Below, piece after piece: positions 3,552-17,701 of a stretch of DNA of 25,595 nt (positions are counted from its first letter, which is position 1; each line of letters opens with the position of its first letter). This DNA comes from a virus, in IMG/VR virus record IMGVR_UViG_3300044613_001899, positions 1 through 25,595 of that record, one strand, 5' to 3'. A program made the position numbers and the translations under genes. A model generated the notes under the pieces. The model made no database searches, was not told the DNA's origin, and saw nothing but the letters and a program-made list of their open reading frames with translations.

Positions 3552-4148
3552 CTAGTTGCTTGACAATGCTTTCAGCTTGGCTTTGTACTCAGCCTCGATC
3601 TGTTGACATTCTTCTCGCGTCCACTTCCTTGACCGTGGCGCATTCTTGAGTCGGTCGGCTTCCTCTTGCCCGATCCTTGCGGGTAGTCTCATGGCGTACT
3701 CGGCTTGATTTCCGCCTAGATGGATGTTGCACTGATTACACTGCTTATGGATGTTAGCAGGGTCAAACCGTAAAGCACTGGATGCGCCGACAGATATATG
3801 GTGGCCCGCATGAAATGCCTGAGCTTCAAACCTCCCACAAGAAATACAGCCCTGTTCCCTATCCCTAGCCAGTACCCACGAATTACAAGCCTTCTCTGCC
3901 TTTTTAAGCCAGTATTGCAAGGGCTTTAGTTCAAGTTTGCGCTCTTTGATCCGCTGGCGCTCGATCTTGTCCTGCTTTTCCTGTTCTTTTGCCTTCCTGC
4001 TGTCGATCAATTGTTGCGCGCAAGATGGAGAACAAACCGTCTGTAACGGTCTGGCAGGGGTAAATAGCTGCTTACAGTTCCGGCATTTTTTCTGCTTGAC
4101 CCGCTTTAATCCGAAAACCCCCATTATGGCATCAGCCTGCGCATTCAT
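3552..4148 (-). CDS. ninG: NinG-type recombination protein
   Basis: 198 residues from the ATG at 4148 (MNAQADAIMGVFG), which overlaps the previous gene by ATGA. The N-terminal part has a zinc motif KCRNCKQLFTPARPLQTVCS with further cysteine. A lysine/glutamate-rich helix follows (about residues 55-90). The C-terminal part is HNH-like: CISCGRF, HAGHHISVGASSALRFDP, HKQCNQCNIHLGGN. This matches lambda NinG (Rap), a structure-specific endonuclease acting on recombination intermediates in the Red pathway. It fits with ERF, SSB and NinB encoded elsewhere in this window. Confidence 0.9.
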   Translation of the reverse strand: MNAQADAIMGVFGLKRVKQKKCRNCKQLFTPARPLQTVCSPSCAQQLIDSRKAKEQEKQDKIERQRIKERKLELKPLQYWLKKAEKACNSWVLARDREQGCISCGRFEAQAFHAGHHISVGASSALRFDPANIHKQCNQCNIHLGGNQAEYAMRLPARIGQEEADRLKNAPRSRKWTREECQQIEAEYKAKLKALSSN

Positions 4149-5309: not shown

Positions 5310-5377
5310 GCCGAACCCATCCATCAACCCGGACGCAAGCGATAAGGCCGCTTGCGCCGGTTATGTCAAACGTTATC
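5310..5377 (+). other. attC-like site A0 (68 bases)
   Basis: Plus strand: GCCGAAC, CATCAACCCGGACGCAAGCG, loop, CGCTTGCGCCGGTTATG, then GTTATC. The arms pair over more than 15 bases with unpaired C, C and A on the first arm only. Its last core GTTATC belongs to the phage (end of ninB), so this attC joins array A to the backbone. Confidence 0.8.
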
Positions 5378-5930: not shown

Positions 5931-6803
5931 TCAAAATTGAACATCGTCTGAAAACCGCATGAAGTCGGGAGAGTAGAAAAGCCCTATGTTCCCTTCCCAT
6001 TCCCCATTTCTCTGCTTATCACAGATCAGCAGGCAATCAGGCTCATCAATCAATGCAAGTTTATTGGCTTCCTTCTTCTTGTTTCTCCATACCGTAATCA
6101 CGTTGTCGACTTGGTCTGTTATCGTCCCAGTCCCTTTAACGTCCATCTTTCCGGGGGGCGCTAGTTCATCCTTTGCCTTCCTCGAATGGGCTACAAGGTG
6201 GATGTGCATTCCGGTATCCCTCCCGATTGAGCATATCTGGTCAAGGAAATGCTTTTGGCCGTTGTAGTCATCTTCTCCAATCCCGCATTTCATCAAACTG
6301 TCAATAATGAAATGATCGGCCTTCAATACGTCAGCGCAGTACCTTAGAACGGCAAGCATGGTCTGAGACTTCACCGCGCCAACTTGGTCATATAGCCAAA
6401 GGTGTTTGTCGGTCCATGTGTGAAACTGCCCAATAGCATCGGCGCTCGGAATCTTCCCGTATTCCTGTCGGCACATCCTGGCGAGAGTTATGTGCGGCTT
6501 CATTTCCATAGAAGCTATGATGATCCTCTGCCCCTGCCGGATGAATCCTAGACACGCCTGACCAAGTATCAGGCTTTTACCGTGACCATTCATCCCGCCC
6601 CATAGCGTGACCTCGCTCGGCCTGAATCCTATTTTACCCGCTGCCTTTGACCACGGGAGAGACTTACCATGATTTATTCCATTCCCGTGGAAGTAGTCAA
6701 TCACAAGGTCTTTGTATTCGACCGCACTTCTTACCTTGTGTTCCGCCTCTGTTTCATTCAGGTAGGCAGAGAAATCTATCGTGTCGTTTATGAAGTGTGC
6801 CAC
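5931..6803 (-). CDS. DnaB/Twinkle-type replicative helicase ATPase
   Basis: 290 residues from a GTG. RecA-like core: Walker A GGMNGHGKS (69-77), H1a-like SMEM (about 97-100), Walker B HFIIDSLMK (163-171), and the H3/H4 region LVAHSRKAK (202-210) followed by DVKGTGTITDQVDNVITVWR. The order matches the C-terminal ATPase of DnaB-family helicases; the N-terminal primase/collar domain is absent. At 290 residues it resembles phage helicase/ATPase versions that work with a separate loader. It follows the DUF1376 replication protein and one unknown gene with coupled starts, making a replication operon. Confidence 0.88.
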   Translation of the reverse strand: MAHFINDTIDFSAYLNETEAEHKVRSAVEYKDLVIDYFHGNGINHGKSLPWSKAAGKIGFRPSEVTLWGGMNGHGKSLILGQACLGFIRQGQRIIIASMEMKPHITLARMCRQEYGKIPSADAIGQFHTWTDKHLWLYDQVGAVKSQTMLAVLRYCADVLKADHFIIDSLMKCGIGEDDYNGQKHFLDQICSIGRDTGMHIHLVAHSRKAKDELAPPGKMDVKGTGTITDQVDNVITVWRNKKKEANKLALIDEPDCLLICDKQRNGEWEGNIGLFYSPDFMRFSDDVQF

Positions 6804-7147
6804 GTCTTATCCCCGAAGTCTTTTACTCCATGATCCCGATGCCAGAAATAGCCTATGTCACTCCCGTAATCAGCGCACATCACAGTTATTTCCTCGGCGT
6901 ATCCTTTGAGCTTTTCAAGAACGTCAGCAGAAAGCTGGTTCCACGATCCAGAGTACAGGGTTATCTGCATATCCTTGAAAGCCCGGAAATCATCATGGGC
7001 CACCGACTCATGTACGGTAAGTTCCATATCCTCAAAGTCGTTGATGTATTTCGGACGCTTGTAGGGGCATTCAATTGATACAACCAGGCTTCGCGGACGA
7101 AGCCCTGCTTTTCTAAGCGTTAGCAAGTGATGAAGTCCTTCGATCAT
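6788..7147 (-). CDS. Conserved hypothetical protein in the replication operon
   Basis: 119 residues from the ATG at 7147 (MIEGLHHLLTLRKAGLRPRS), chosen because it overlaps the DUF1376 stop by ATGA. An in-frame start at 7240 would overlap that gene by about 100 bases. Alternating strands and helices (RSLVVSIECPYKRPKYINDF, DMQITLYSGSWNQL, EITVMCADYGSDIGYFW) suggest an alpha/beta fold. I do not recognise the family. Its position between replisome organiser and helicase points to a replication role, such as primase-like or loader function, by context only. Confidence 0.65.
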   Translation of the reverse strand: MIEGLHHLLTLRKAGLRPRSLVVSIECPYKRPKYINDFEDMELTVHESVAHDDFRAFKDMQITLYSGSWNQLSADVLEKLKGYAEEITVMCADYGSDIGYFWHRDHGVKDFGDKTWHTS

Positions 7148-7812
7148 ATGTAGGGAACCGAGATTGAGGATTGCGAGTTGATAACTCTTGGGGCTTTGTC
7201 CTGCGCCCTCGATAGCCAACCATTGATGAATCTTGCCCACTGTTTTTTTGTGTTCTTAGGATTTGATAGAATCCATGCCGCCGCTTTAGATAGTTCAACT
7301 TCAATGTTCAAAGCAGGGTATGCAGCTTCCCACGCTTTTAGATGGCCGTTTATATTCTGAAACTTGATACCGTCGAACACGATTTTTTCGTGTGAGATAG
7401 AAGAACTTGGTTCTTGGTTCTTGGTTCTTGGTTGCAACCCACTGGGTTCCTGCTGGGTTCCTGCTGGGTTAGCTAAAATAACCTGCTGGGTTTTCTTTGG
7501 CCTCCCGCCTAGCTTTCCGTTGATTCTGGAAACTTCTGCAAGGCGTTTATATGCCTTAATTTCAGCATCGCAGCGCGAATTGTGCCAGCAATTATCATCT
7601 TCAAGAGTGAAGAATTCGGTAAGAATTGACTCCAAAATTAACCCAGAAGAACCCAAGCGTAACCTGCGGATAACCTGCTGGGTTTCGTTTGGTATTGGTT
7701 GTTCTGTCTCCATATATAGGTCGATCAGTCGTCGATAAACGCAATCTTCGATCAGATCAAGGTGAGCGGTAGCTCGTATGTAATCCCCTACATGGAAAGG
7801 ATAGTGGTGCAT
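7144..7812 (-). CDS. DUF1376 (YdaU-type) replication protein
   Basis: 222 residues from the ATG at 7812 (MHHYPFHVGDYIRATAHLDL). Residues 1-100 are the DUF1376 domain: HVGDYIRATAHL, EDCVYRRLIDLYMETEQPIP, then WHNSRCDAEI. This domain is found at the N-terminus of phage and prophage replication initiators that act like lambda O. A low-complexity linker (about 105-140, rich in Gln, Pro, Asn) is encoded by DNA tandem repeats. The C-terminal domain AWILSNPKNTKKQWARFING is typical of the DNA-binding tail of such proteins. The start has no strong Shine-Dalgarno and lies 19 bases after a small upstream frame. Confidence 0.85.
   Translation of the reverse strand: MHHYPFHVGDYIRATAHLDLIEDCVYRRLIDLYMETEQPIPNETQQVIRRLRLGSSGLILESILTEFFTLEDDNCWHNSRCDAEIKAYKRLAEVSRINGKLGGRPKKTQQVILANPAGTQQEPSGLQPRTKNQEPSSSISHEKIVFDGIKFQNINGHLKAWEAAYPALNIEVELSKAAAWILSNPKNTKKQWARFINGWLSRAQDKAPRVINSQSSISVPYI
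7407..7492. repeat. Iteron-like direct repeats inside the replication gene (candidate ori)
   Basis: CCTGCTGGGTT occurs at 7449-7459, 7460-7470 and 7482-7492, with a fourth exact copy at 7674-7684 and a partial ACTGGGTT at 7441-7448. Next to these TTGGTTC is repeated at 7407, 7414 and 7421, with TTGGTTG at 7428. The arrangement resembles the lambda origin, where iterons lie within gene O. The repeats encode the linker of the DUF1376 protein. Confidence 0.55.
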
Positions 7813-7830
7813 AGTCAATTCACTTTGGGG

Positions 7831-7911
7831 TCAGCCGACGTGCCGGGTGAGAAATGCCCGGCCAAATGATAGACGAACGAGGCCACGCCAGATCAATCTG
7901 GTGTCGGCTGA
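7831..7911 (-). ncRNA. Structured leader element upstream of the replication gene
   Basis: A closing stem TCAGCCGAC (7831-7839) with GTCGGCTGA (7903-7911) encloses two more perfect hairpins: GCCGGG with CCCGGC, and CCAGAT with ATCTGG. The element lies in the mRNA leader of the replication operon, ending about 19 bases before its start. It overlaps a 36-codon frame on the same strand. It is not a tRNA and I do not recognise a known riboswitch. Confidence 0.45.
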
Positions 7912-7941
7912 CGCTAAAGAAAACTGATTGTAGTGCAGCAT
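7831..7941 (-). CDS. Small leader peptide upstream of the replication gene
   Basis: 36 residues, MLHYNQFSLASADTRLIWRG to TRHVG, with a strong Shine-Dalgarno (GAGGA, about six bases before the ATG). The peptide is basic and hydrophobic. Its codons overlap the structured element exactly, and its stop is 19 bases before the weakly preceded ATG of the DUF1376 gene. This suggests translational coupling or attenuation. It may equally be only a regulatory frame with no protein function. Confidence 0.45.
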   Translation of the reverse strand: MLHYNQFSLASADTRLIWRGLVRLSFGRAFLTRHVG

Positions 7942-7992
7942 TATTTTCCTCGTTTCGTATCGGATTTCCAGCCCGACACAATTACTATACGC

Positions 7993-8091
7993 CTACTTTT
8001 TCAGGGAAGCAATCAACTTTTCCCGCATCTTCCTGACCAGGATCAACCGTTGAAGCTGATTCCATCGCTTCATTTGGTATTTTGTGACCAT
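7993..8091 (-). CDS. Small basic protein after array B
   Basis: 32 residues, MVTKYQMKRWNQLQRLILVR to LIASLKK. It begins right after the repeated SD leader (CCTGCAAGGAG in sense orientation). Very basic and amphipathic. It is the first frame of the replication operon downstream of the attI-like site. No family recognised. Confidence 0.45.
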   Translation of the reverse strand: MVTKYQMKRWNQLQRLILVRKMREKLIASLKK

Positions 8092-8208
8092 TTCAACTCC
8101 TTGCAGGGTTTATCGGATTGTTTACTGTACTGATTCATTTAATGTCAAAGACTTACAGTTTGTCGATGGAAAGGTTATGCAGCACGGGTGCTGTAGAACT
8201 TACGTTAG
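8092..8208 (-). repeat. Repeated leader module, copy B
   Basis: On the minus strand it runs from the attI-like core to the ATG at 8091. The 13 bases AAACCCTGCAAGG (inverted at 8099-8111) match those at 17736-17748 exactly. They lie 76 bases from the core here and 75 at copy C. In both, GCTGCATAACC follows the core closely. The cassette-side frame ends NVSSTAPVLHNLSIDKL. Confidence 0.7.
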
Positions 8209-8938
8209 GTGCCTTGGGTTCGCACCGTTTGCTATTCCGTACCACAACCCAAAAACAGTGCGTGTTCTTGGCGTGGTGCGCCCGTTGCCACCGTCCGCTT
8301 TTCAGGTTCCCGCCGCAGGGGTCGCGCTTGATAATCAGGTCACACGGCATCAACCCGGCTTCGCGCACCGCCGCGTTGAACAGTTCAAGGTTCCACTGGT
8401 ATTTGTGGTTGTGGACGTAATCCTTGATCTTGGCGAAAACCAACCCGTCATGCTTCAGCACTCGCTTGGCTTCGGCCAAAAACGGCGCGTGCAGTTCGCC
8501 CACGTTGTCCGCCTTCACGCCCTTACCGAGTCCGTAGTCCTTGCCGTATCGTGCCAAAGACTGAGGGCTTGCCGCTGCGTCTGGTAGATGCGGCGGGTCA
8601 TACACCAGAACGTCCACCGTGCCGTCAGCATCAGGCATGTCGTGCCAGTGGGCAACAACATCTGGCCGCATCGCCGGGTCGCGGTCGTAGTACGCCACCT
8701 TTGCGCCGGTCGCGCTGCCTTTCCACATCCTGCGAGCGTTGCAGCAAACATCAATCACCCGCTTCGCCCTCGGCGCGTAAAACTCAAACATCGCGTCAAG
8801 CAGAGCATTGTCCTTGCCAATCCACACAGACTCCAGCCGCTTAAAAGTCGGTTCTGGCGGTACGGCACCTAACACGTCGGTCAAGTCGGACGTGCCGCAT
8901 GTGCCTCCGTCAAACGCTTGCAGTTGTTCCATCTTCAT
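8153..8938 (-). CDS. Cassette gene: DVCC/DPPH class I methyltransferase-fold protein
   Basis: 261 residues. Core of a class I SAM-dependent methyltransferase: RVIDVCCNARRMW in place of the usual glycine-rich motif I, VAYYDRDPAMRPDVV, then VDVLVYDPPHLPDA (DPPH, like the DPPY/W of DNA/RNA methyltransferases), RYGKDYGLG, and AKRVLKHDGLVFAKIKDY. A homolog is encoded at 16443. The first codons (to about GTSDLTDVLGA) lie inside a long attC, with GGGAG before ATG codons at 8938 and 8932. A later start, such as the GTG before WIGKDN, cannot be excluded. The frame has no stop of its own and ends PNVSSTAPVLHNLSIDKL in the phage leader. Confidence 0.75.
   Translation of the reverse strand: MKMEQLQAFDGGTCGTSDLTDVLGAVPPEPTFKRLESVWIGKDNALLDAMFEFYAPRAKRVIDVCCNARRMWKGSATGAKVAYYDRDPAMRPDVVAHWHDMPDADGTVDVLVYDPPHLPDAAASPQSLARYGKDYGLGKGVKADNVGELHAPFLAEAKRVLKHDGLVFAKIKDYVHNHKYQWNLELFNAAVREAGLMPCDLIIKRDPCGGNLKSGRWQRAHHAKNTHCFWVVVRNSKRCEPKAPNVSSTAPVLHNLSIDKL
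8174..8208 (+). other. attI-like recombination site B
   Basis: GTTATGCAGC (8174-8183) then GTGCTGTAGAACTTACG (8188-8204) and TTAGGT; inferred crossover between 8204 and 8205. The layout resembles class 1 attI, in which a GTTACGCAGC direct-repeat box lies about 30 bases before the G/TTAGG crossover. CAGCAC and GTGCTG form a small hairpin here. Confidence 0.65.
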
Positions 8939-8987
8939 CGCTCCCTTTTAGTCCTGTGGCGGCACGCCGCTTACCTTGGCGTTATGC
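8864..8987 (+). other. Long attC-like site containing a gene start (124 bases)
   Basis: Plus strand: GGCACCTAAC, GGTCAAGTCGGACGTGCC (8879-8896), a loop of about 60 bases, then GGCACGCCGCTTACC and GTTATGC. The arms pair GGT-C-AAG-T-CGG-A-CGTGCC against GGCACG-CCG-CTT-ACC, again with extra bases only on the first arm. The loop encodes the Shine-Dalgarno and start of the methyltransferase on the minus strand. Confidence 0.75.
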
Positions 8988-9278
8988 CGCTTCATACGTC
9001 GCCTCGAAGATGTCAGGCTTGCACGGGTACAGTTCTCCCTTCACGCCCTGGATTACCCAGTCTCCCCACGAAACCAAGTGCTGCCCTTCGAGCGTGCCAA
9101 TCGAGAGCGTGCCGTCGCCGGTGCCGGCTTCTGTCGGGTACAGCGATCCGGGCGTTTCGCGCTCAAGTTGCCAAGCGCGGTGCATCCATTCCGGCCAATC
9201 GGCATTGCTGGCCCTGCGTTCTTCGGTCATCTTGAAGGCTTCGATCACTACGGGCTTCTTGCGAAATTTCAGGTTCAT
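8982..9278 (-). CDS. Cassette gene: phage-type protein (RKKPVVIEAF family)
   Basis: 98 residues from the ATG at 9278 (MNLKFRKKPVVIEAFKMTEE), with AAGGAG seven bases upstream. The ending GTLEGQHLVSWGDWVIQGVK then GELYPCKPDIFEATYE is a very widespread phage motif whose biochemical role is unknown. Length is normal for the family. The TAA stop is part of the R'' box (GCATAAC) of its attC. Presence of this phage-typical family in a cassette suggests that cassettes circulate among phages. Confidence 0.85.
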   Translation of the reverse strand: MNLKFRKKPVVIEAFKMTEERRASNADWPEWMHRAWQLERETPGSLYPTEAGTGDGTLSIGTLEGQHLVSWGDWVIQGVKGELYPCKPDIFEATYEAA

Positions 9279-10188: not shown

Positions 10189-10575
10189 GATGAAACATCA
10201 GCACAGCGCATTGACCAAGCAACAACTGGTACTAGCTCCGCTATAAGGCCATAGATCATGCGATCACTGATAAGCGTCTGATGAAGCGGAAGCAGAAAAA
10301 CAATTGTGTCACGCTCATTCTGTAGGATGTTTCTGGTTCAGCCTACAGTCTTACCTGGTAACTAGATGCGGCCATGTTGCGCGGGGGCATGGTCAAAGGT
10401 AAGCGGGGCTTCCAAGACTTACGGCCCTGTTAGCCCGTGCCAATTTTAGATAGTTCAGTTAGTGGATCGAGTTAGCGCGGCGCGTAGTCGCGGTCTAACC
10501 AGCGAGATTGGATGGACTGGTTATCCACCTTTTGACTAGCTCGGTCCTCTAACTGCATTACAACAGGAGAAAGAA
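10189..10575 (+). other. Long untranslated leader of the plus operon
   Basis: No credible gene in about 385 bases. It holds the second ATTCTGTAGGAT element (10317-10328), a GGCCATG/CATGGTC hairpin near 10370, and GTTAG...CTAAC flanking a GCGCG/CGCG core (10466-10494). GTTAGCCC near 10428 matches the end of the cassette at 11968 by eight bases, which may be chance. The length suggests a structured regulatory leader. Confidence 0.4.
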
Positions 10576-10800
10576 ATGTCTAAAGAGTACGCAGAAAAGT
10601 TTTCCGAATCACTCTTCGTGATGATGAACGGGATCAACAGAGTCCGCGCGGCTGAAGTTCTCGACAAGATGGAAATGGATGCACTCAGGGCCAGGTTCGA
10701 GGAAGATAATAAACTTGAAGGCCGGAGACTCAACCGCGAAGCCCACGTTGACGACAGGCGGGAAGCTTCCGAAGTATGGGAGCGGATGCAGGAGCCGTGA
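10576..10800 (+). CDS. Small helical hypothetical protein
   Basis: 74 residues, MSKEYAEKFSESLFVMMNGI to VWERMQEP. Preceded by AGGAGA seven bases upstream. Almost entirely charged helix (AAEVLDKMEMDALRARFEED, RREASEVWERM), so a coiled coil is likely. First gene after the long leader. No family recognised. Confidence 0.65.
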   Translation: MSKEYAEKFSESLFVMMNGINRVRAAEVLDKMEMDALRARFEEDNKLEGRRLNREAHVDDRREASEVWERMQEP

Positions 10801-13036: not shown

Positions 13037-13108
13037 CCGCTAACGCCTAGCTAACCGGCGCGGGCGGCTTTATCGCCTGCGTCCGGGTTGAGCGACGTGT
13101 TAGCAGGC
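13037..13108 (-). other. attC-like site C1-b (72 bases)
   Basis: Sense strand: CCGCTAAC, GCTAACCGG, GCG-rich stem-loop, CCGGGTTGAGC, GTTAGCAGGC. The second arm carries extra bases (GCTCAACCCGG against GCTAACCGG). The R' end GTTAGCAGGCAAA recurs, inverted, at the end of this cassette (up to 13883), the longest such match in the window. Confidence 0.85.
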
Positions 13109-15495: not shown

Positions 15496-15557
15496 GATAA
15501 CGTGGAGTTCAGCGGGGCGCAGCGCAGCGGAGCGTCCGCTGGAACGCAGGGTTAGAC
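15496..15557 (-). other. attC-like site C2-0 (62 bases)
   Basis: Sense strand: GATAAC, GTTCAGCGG, loop, CCGCTGGAAC, GTTAGAC. Perfect pairing with one extra G on the second arm. The first core GATAAC belongs to the phage flank, so this is the upstream edge of array C2. Confidence 0.85.
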
Positions 15558-15575
15558 AACATTTTGGAGAACAGC

Positions 15576-16503: not shown

Positions 16504-16997
16504 TGCCTCCGGTTTTGGATGTGTGTTGTGGGCCGCGTGGAATGTGGTTCAACAAGGCCGACAAAAGAGCGATGTTTGTAGATAGGCGAAGAGAGACTCA
16601 TATTTTTGACCATCCAAGCGGGTATCGTACCGATGTCATAGACCCTGACGAATTGGCGGATTTTACAAATCTACCATTCCCTGATGAAGTATTTTGGCTT
16701 GTGGTGATGGATCCGCCACATATAACACAGACTGCAAACACGGGACGCATAGTTAAACGCTACGGAATGTTAGAAGGTGATTGGCGCGAGATGTTGCGTG
16801 TCGGTTTTTTAGAGTGCTTTCGAGTACTGAAGCCAAACGGAACTTTCATATTCAAATGGAATGAGTGCCGCATACCTATCAAAGAGATTTTGCCATTAGC
16901 ACCGTTCCCGCCTCTGTTTGGGCATAAATCAGGGAAAGCAATGCAAACGCATTGGGTTACTTTCATGAAGCCCGGTGAAGATGATGATGGGGCATAA
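16443..16997 (+). CDS. Cassette gene: DVCC/DPPH methyltransferase-fold protein
   Basis: 184 residues. PPVLDVCCGPRGMWFNK is a motif I variant; AMFVDRRRETHIF follows; VFWLVVMDPPHITQTAN gives DPPH; RYGMLEGDWREMLRVGFLEC and FRVLKPNGTFIFKWNE complete the class I methyltransferase core. It is homologous in design to the protein at 8153-8938 and shorter at the C-terminus. Target unknown; DPPH suggests nucleic acid. The start at 16443 has GAGGA at good spacing and lies in the attC loop. An ATG inside the R' box (16496, MPLPPVLDV) is possible but lacks a site. The stop is part of GCATAAC. Confidence 0.75.
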   Translation: MIEEKNDHAVTRALERRVMPLPPVLDVCCGPRGMWFNKADKRAMFVDRRRETHIFDHPSGYRTDVIDPDELADFTNLPFPDEVFWLVVMDPPHITQTANTGRIVKRYGMLEGDWREMLRVGFLECFRVLKPNGTFIFKWNECRIPIKEILPLAPFPPLFGHKSGKAMQTHWVTFMKPGEDDDGA

Positions 16998-17055
16998 CGC
17001 CAAGGTAAGCGGCGGCGGTGCTTTTCCGCCGTCCGCTTGACCGACGTGTTAGGTG
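16992..17055 (-). other. attC-like site C2-3 (64 bases)
   Basis: Sense strand: GCATAAC, GGTAAGCGG, GGCGG...CCGCC stem, CCGCTTGACC, GTTAGGTGA. One extra G on the second arm. Its reverse complement (TAACACG, GGTCAAGCGG, CCGCTTACC, GTTATGC) reads like a standard proteobacterial attC. Confidence 0.88.
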
Positions 17056-17463: not shown

Positions 17464-17701
17464 CGAACTACGGGCAGAACTTGCCATGACTTTCGAGAGA
17501 TTGAAGGCGGGAGAAATAAAACCAGGTGAAGCCGCTGAACTAGCCAACTTGGCCGGGAAGATGATCGGTAGCGCAAAGGTGCAGGTTGAGTATTACGCGC
17601 TGCGGAAAGAATCACCGCGCATCGAGTGGCTTGAGTCACCTAACGTAAGTTCTACAGCACCATCGCTGCATAACCTAGACACAAATCAAGGTAACTTGTA
17701 A
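17450..17701 (+). CDS. Cassette gene fused to phage-encoded tail peptide
   Basis: 83 residues. The cassette supplies about 62: MKNCDELRAELAMTFERLKA, GEIKPGEAAELANLAGKMIG, then KVQVEYYALRKESPRIEWLE. This is a helical pattern typical of small phage proteins. The cassette ends at GTCACCTAA/C without a stop. The frame runs through the attI-like site and ends PNVSSTAPSLHNLDTNQGNL in the leader. It overlaps the previous gene by 14 bases in the same cassette. Function unknown. Confidence 0.7.
   Translation: MKNCDELRAELAMTFERLKAGEIKPGEAAELANLAGKMIGSAKVQVEYYALRKESPRIEWLESPNVSSTAPSLHNLDTNQGNL
17640..17674 (-). other. attI-like recombination site C
   Basis: On the minus strand: GTTATGCAGC (17674-17665), then GTGCTGTAGAACTTACG and TTAGGT; crossover inferred between 17643 and 17644. 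Matches site B, including the GTTATGCAGC box and spacing. Located at the 3' end of array C2. Confidence 0.65.

Follow-up and report, generated by a model that had tools for sequence, protein, structure and literature searches.

Introduction

Leader-peptide coupling of plasmid rep genes is a known arrangement, exemplified by the tap-repA pair of IncFII plasmids and the repY-repZ pair of ColIb-P9. A second, quite different class of relevant elements comprises the MITEs, which are small non-autonomous insertions bounded by inverted repeats. In I-complex and other plasmids, rep mRNA translation is additionally subject to inhibition by the antisense stem-loop RNAI, as described in PMC10724649.

The locus considered here lies on a 25.6-kb virus contig, analysed over its whole 25,595-nt stretch (hereafter the window), and invites comparison with both classes. 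As in tap-repA and repY-repZ, a small frame ends just 5' of a replication gene, a predicted structure hides the start of that gene, and ribosomes translating the small frame would unfold the structure. Unlike those systems, the gene involved is a phage primosomal gene, an antisense promoter was undetected and relatives were not found, the arrangement being known here from sequence and folding. Judged by analogy and by the folding model, the leader would work most like plasmid rep leader-peptide coupling. The resemblance to MITEs lies in a short element with inverted ends and flanking direct repeats, carrying no recognised gene and placed at a gene start; the differences are that the element is single-copy where searched, that its direct repeats are imperfect, and that a partner transposon was not found. 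Taken on its anatomy, the element looks most like an apparently one-off small insertion.

Results

Gene neighbourhood

The sole other copy found of the locus was that in IMGVR_UViG_3300002835_000819, identical to the window (100%) over both compared stretches of 12.7 kb and 8.8 kb. A blastn search of window positions 7000–9000 against phages gave no match, and the leader was absent from the titles and opening lines of abstracts in the literature on DUF1376 with phage or on MITEs in bacteriophage genomes. The DUF1376 gene (Table 1) encodes a product of 224 aa, the likely start being ATG 7812, with TTG 7818 as an alternative; from ATG 7812 the N-terminus reads MHHYPFH. A DnaB-like helicase gene is located further downstream at 5931–6803, and the 150-aa frame between the two matched no Pfam or PHROG family. 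Short tandem repeats were present inside the DUF1376 gene at 7404–7470, consisting of three exact TTCTTGG heptamers at 7411–7431 followed by an 11-nt repeat of the CTGGGTTCCTG type; any change in the heptamer count would shift the reading frame.

Table 1. Coordinates of features at the DUF1376 leader of the window.
Feature	Position	Strand	Basis
DUF1376 / primosomal-protein gene	7144–7818	-	PF07120 E 9.4e-22; PHROG primosomal proteins; start context
Flanking direct repeat copy 2, ATGCACCACTA, start of DUF1376 gene	7802–7812	-	9/11 versus copy 1
Inverted-repeat arm 1, 22/29 with the other arm, inner 10 perfect	7811–7839		repeat scan
36-codon frame, putative relic of the gene's original start under the insertion reading	7831–7941	-	no relatives in searched loci or families
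Inner hairpin 1, GCCGGGT..GCCCGGC (plus strand)	7842–7862		fold, pairs 7842–7848/7856–7862
Inner hairpin 2, GCCAGA..TCTGGT (plus strand)	7887–7902		fold, pairs 7887–7892/7897–7902
Inverted-repeat arm 2	7903–7931		repeat scan
Flanking direct repeat copy 1, ATGCTGCACTA, start of 36-codon frame	7931–7941	-	9/11 versus copy 2
Separate 9-bp hairpin in leader, 5' of 36-codon frame	7956–7980	-	fold
Possible promoter TTGCTT-17-TATAGT, good -10, poor -35	7984–8012	-	read by eye; putative

Anatomy of the leader

The initial annotation had drawn attention to a 36-codon frame with a strong ribosome site, lying just before a replication gene with a poor one, and both observations were borne out. The frame runs on the minus strand from ATG 7941 to a TGA stop at 7833–7831, with GAGG 6 nt 5' of its ATG, while the DUF1376 gene immediately 3' of it is devoid of a Shine-Dalgarno site at ATG 7812 and at TTG 7818 alike; the frame that ends just 5' of the gene thus has a ribosome site and the gene itself has none. 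Only the window's own copies matched the 36-aa peptide when it was compared with related loci, and no PHROG family did so. A scan of 7600–8300 against the sigma-70 consensus called no promoter-like site, the candidate read by eye (Table 1) included.

The closing stem reported in the initial annotation was present, although with ten perfect pairs (7830–7839/7903–7912) rather than nine, and it extends outwards into the longer imperfect arms listed in Table 1. The two hairpins said to lie within it were both recovered in the plus-strand RNA fold, but only one of them in the minimum-energy RNA fold of the mRNA strand: inner hairpin 2 was missing from the minus-strand RNA structures but appeared on that strand in the fold calculated with DNA parameters.

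A proposed insertion at the start of the gene

We tentatively propose that the DUF1376 gene had its start duplicated, and separated from its ribosome site, by a small MITE-like insertion, so that the small frame is a relic and the gene has become dependent on coupling. The insertion, of ~118 nt and with inverted ends that are imperfect and 29 nt long, would have landed within the first codons of the primosomal gene, where 11 nt of target sequence were duplicated so as to flank it, each copy with an ATG. The upstream duplicate would have kept the original Shine-Dalgarno site and would open the 36-codon frame, a putative relic that stops at the far arm of the insert, while the downstream duplicate would have kept the MHHYPFH start with loss of the ribosome site. 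Translation of the DUF1376 gene would then proceed mainly through coupling, ribosomes on the small frame opening the stem and restarting 12–18 nt downstream. Such an event would account in one step for a small frame with a good Shine-Dalgarno site, a gene with none, and an inverted repeat between them.

Terminal inverted repeats are evident in the matching of the two arms, and the inverted repeat at 7811–7931, found independently of the direct repeats at 7802–7812 and 7931–7941, fits nearly exactly between these and overlaps them by 2 and 1 nt, respectively. When 22-nt flanks were paired at random, 53 of 4000 pairs gave a direct repeat as good as that at the ends of the element; given two ATGs, at least six of the next eight bases match with a probability of 0.004, a value that assumes equal base frequencies and a length chosen post hoc. 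One relative (L022) begins ATGCACCACTATCC, 14 letters identical to the downstream copy, and for this reason the downstream start copy looks conserved and the upstream copy drifted. Against an insertion stand the mismatches at 2 of the 11 positions of the direct repeats, and the poorer pairing of the outer than of the inner arm ends, a pattern that is the reverse of that usual for transposon ends. An empty site was likewise absent from the data examined, in which viral contigs gave DUF1376 relatives of at best 41–47% identity.

No further copies of the element, of the kind expected of a MITE, were found in viral contigs, species genomes, plasmids, phages or a sample of 399 genomes. The exact two-arm pattern occurred in seven viral contigs besides the identical one and in nine stretches among 84,980 species genomes, in all cases with flanks and interiors unlike those of the element, and one-arm patterns occurred in none of the species genomes and in seven other viral contigs, all of which lacked the second arm; such exact-pattern searches are blind to diverged copies. 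Using blastn, the element matched nothing in plasmids and gave one 24-nt match in phages (E 0.3), while the 399 genomes, all of one bacterial order and each with few candidates scored, yielded one 21-nt match.

Departure of the structure from chance expectation

The principal competing explanation, which we consider somewhat unlikely, is that the palindrome is incidental: an ordinary phage-leader spacer that happens to fold well and to hold a chance small frame, with weak translation from ATG 7812 or TTG 7818 and no special control. Perfect 10-nt arms are indeed to be expected by chance, the window holding two where 60 shuffles averaged 2.4. The extended repeat is another matter: it scores 15, and repeats scoring at least 15 averaged 0.025 per dinucleotide-shuffled window (1 in 40 shuffles) as against two in the real window. 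Folding energies were moderately low: z-scores for the 111-nt element were -2.7 on the plus strand and -2.2 on the minus strand, and that for the 191-nt minus-strand leader was -4.1, a further point against mere coincidence, as is the coincidence of the direct repeats with the ends of the inverted repeat. Among 2548 windows of 120 nt, those starting at 7801, 7821 and 7841 ranked 5–7 on the plus strand but just 87–149 on the mRNA strand, the latter in keeping with an ordinary spacer. The structure is, in short, partly beyond chance.

The frequency of small frames also speaks for coincidence. Small frames preceded by a Shine-Dalgarno site numbered 23 in the window as compared with 18.1 in mononucleotide shuffles, and one ended 0–40 nt upstream of 22 of the 489 ORFs of at least 150 aa in 79 related loci; such frames are common. 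The orphan status of the element among the sequences searched also favours an incidental palindrome.

Predicted translational coupling

Accessibility was computed by folding 7980–7740 with and without a ribosome footprint on the stop of the small frame. The mean unpaired probability of the 15 nt before ATG 7812 rose from 0.24 to 0.97 with the ribosome in place, a rise that is in part built in since the footprint covers most of those 15 nt, and the corresponding values for the DUF1376 start itself were 0.29 and 0.56. On computation, then, the downstream start is buried in a structure that gives way once a ribosome occupies the small frame, and because of this predicted rise the anatomy of the leader favours translational coupling, whatever the origin of the element.

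The suggestion in the initial annotation that the structure may be an attenuator is, to this extent, consistent with the model, in which a start lacking a Shine-Dalgarno site is hidden by the fold and exposed by a ribosome at the small-frame stop, as would fit a translationally coupled attenuator; it sits poorly with the failure to detect the element in 79 related loci. Nothing indicates the sensing of replication protein levels that was offered as the alternative role. A dedicated translational attenuator, in which translation of the leader peptide opens the stem and permits that of the primosomal gene, with an antisense RNA or the replication protein possibly adjusting the response, seems to us unlikely. 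Besides the predicted accessibility shift and the missing Shine-Dalgarno site, it is favoured by the still better folding of the plus strand, as might be expected of an antisense RNA; set against it are the leader peptide, for which the loci and protein families compared gave no relatives, and the scans of 7600–8300, which found neither promoter-like nor terminator-like sites. Decidedly improbable is the fuller scheme in which translation of the leader frame opens a clover-like RNA, and the opposite strand, which folds better, supplies an antisense RNA, so that a phage replication module would have its copy number controlled in the manner of a plasmid, possibly by way of a recruited insertion.

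Leaders of related loci

Further evidence against a dedicated attenuator comes from relatives. DUF1376 relatives in viral stretches were represented by the best 80 of 87, of which one was the identical contig, leaving 79 others; 64 annotated phage records contained a DUF1376 relative. A covariance model combining the structure and sequence of the element returned nothing credible from these 79 loci (best other E = 2.6), and gave no hits at E ≤ 10 among 90 further loci, 80 of them viral and partly on the same contigs, the other 10 drawn from the 15 bacterial genomes in which DUF1376 was matched and searched with the covariance model alone. Conserved structure with covariation was accordingly not seen: no homologous structure was detected in the 79 and 90 loci, and the other copy, being identical, offers no changes to compare. 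Searching the related loci with the element by blastn recovered, apart from the window's own copies, a single 19-nt match (E 0.83). No relative examined shows a conserved control switch by sequence comparison.

The leaders of the nearest relatives were plain (z -0.8, 0.8 and 0.7 for L003, L004 and L005), and 49 of 58 distinct leaders, drawn from the 79 with duplicates dropped, contained a Shine-Dalgarno match of at least 4 nt located 3–12 nt before the DUF1376 start, a point in favour of the insertion reading given that the window's gene has none and the ATG of its small frame has GAGG. As a class, DUF1376 leaders did not differ from control starts: for 45 hand-picked representatives of the 79 versus 258 controls, mean z was -0.71 versus -0.38 (p = 0.24), the shuffle seeds being not exactly reproducible. 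Values of -3 or below were recorded for 4 of the 45 and 5 of the 258, the window's own leader scoring -3.1 in this comparison. Some support for dedicated control is provided by the four strongly structured leaders of L057 (z -7.9), L035 (-5.1), L017 (-3.7) and L016 (-3.0), each with a structure of its own. Seven of 107 repeats scoring at least 13 fell in DUF1376 leaders, which occupy 15.7 of 691 kb, and these represent about three lineages as judged by eye and are given no weight as proof. At L057, a 26-nt-arm inverted repeat with inner hairpins was observed at 3806–3909, its 3' arm containing the Shine-Dalgarno site and abutting the DUF1376 ATG.

A different type of leader in another phage clade

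Three of these structured leaders belong to a phage clade of 16 loci (L121–L136), which includes the contigs of L016, L017, L024–L026 and L035. All 16 loci have a TTGACA box and a hairpin with a G-stem and T-run shortly before the Shine-Dalgarno site 5' of the DUF1376 gene, and a second small-hairpin motif, GGAAGCGCGAA, is exactly present in 15 of the 16. The layout can be seen at L016 5800–6007 and L035 3440–3640, where the TTGACA box is followed by two small hairpins, a long-arm hairpin with a T-run and the Shine-Dalgarno site. Simple scans of L016 and L035 called no promoter and did not report the long-arm hairpin, the loop of which is longer than the scans allow. A long-arm repeat scoring at least 13 was found in 9 of 53 distinct leaders of the locus set of this clade, two more having an unrelated repeat, and between L016 and L017 the closing stem shows a paired substitution that preserves the match (AACCCC/GGGGTT versus AACCTC/GAGGTT).

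Like the window's leader, those of the clade have a long-arm hairpin just 5' of a DUF1376 family gene; unlike it, their hairpins end in a T-run and the Shine-Dalgarno site is kept after the hairpin, and no sequence match to the window's element was found. The put site of HK022 consists of two stem-loops, according to PMC9378689, and the leaders of the clade similarly have two small hairpins after a promoter-like box. By analogy, they are possibly put-like antitermination leaders with a terminator, and attenuator-like leaders before DUF1376 genes may thus exist, though of another kind than that of the window.

Rejected identities and other elements of the window

That the palindrome acts as DNA, as a cruciform or single-strand site for phage replication (an origin or a point of primosome loading) adjoining the primosomal gene, is highly improbable, for although primosomal and DnaB-like genes are near and DNA-parameter folds gave z -4.1 (plus) and -2.9 (minus), no iteron array was present, 7700–8160 holding just three two-copy direct repeats of 8–9 nt, and the element was undetected in the 79 and 90 loci.

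Three established identities were rejected. An intrinsic terminator or transcription attenuator was excluded by the lack of a T-run after the arm, and a scan of 7600–8300, restricted to loops of 3–8 nt, found none; an integron attC site by the absence, as judged by eye, of RYYYAAC and GTTRRRY boxes from the arm ends; and an Rfam family by the return of no matches at the gathering score in the window, or at E ≤ 5 in 7750–8050.

Sites resembling attC do occur elsewhere in the window, between small genes (13043–13106, 15497–15560, 16994–17053, 5314–5363 and others), with forms such as ATAACG, a hairpin, and GTTAGAC or GTTAGGT; these were judged by eye, an over-strict attC scan having missed them. 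Phages with clustered attC sites are described in PMC9892861. A 43-nt element at 8172–8214 and 17634–17676 is 91% conserved in inverted orientation, and forms the 3' end of each of two frames that otherwise differ, PNVSSTAPxLHNL being present in both proteins.

A second inverted repeat (10451–10475/10536–10560, plus strand) has an equal score to that of the leader and a similar size, encloses further hairpins, and lies shortly 5' of the Shine-Dalgarno site and ATG of a 74-aa frame at 10576–10800. It had no credible Rfam match, and a pattern search for further copies recovered only the identical contig. The idea that 7811–7931 and 10451–10560 share a repeat was dropped because their local alignment was no better than those of shuffled sequences, 84 and 199 of 300 shuffles reaching the alignment score.

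Biological implications

The leader is currently one orphan locus. If the reading as a dedicated leader were correct, a mode of control familiar from plasmids would extend to the replication modules of phages. If the insertion reading that we tentatively prefer is true, the locus would be a small example of a simple gene start becoming a coupled leader through an insertion at its start codon, and would thereby illustrate a possible origin of leader-peptide control.
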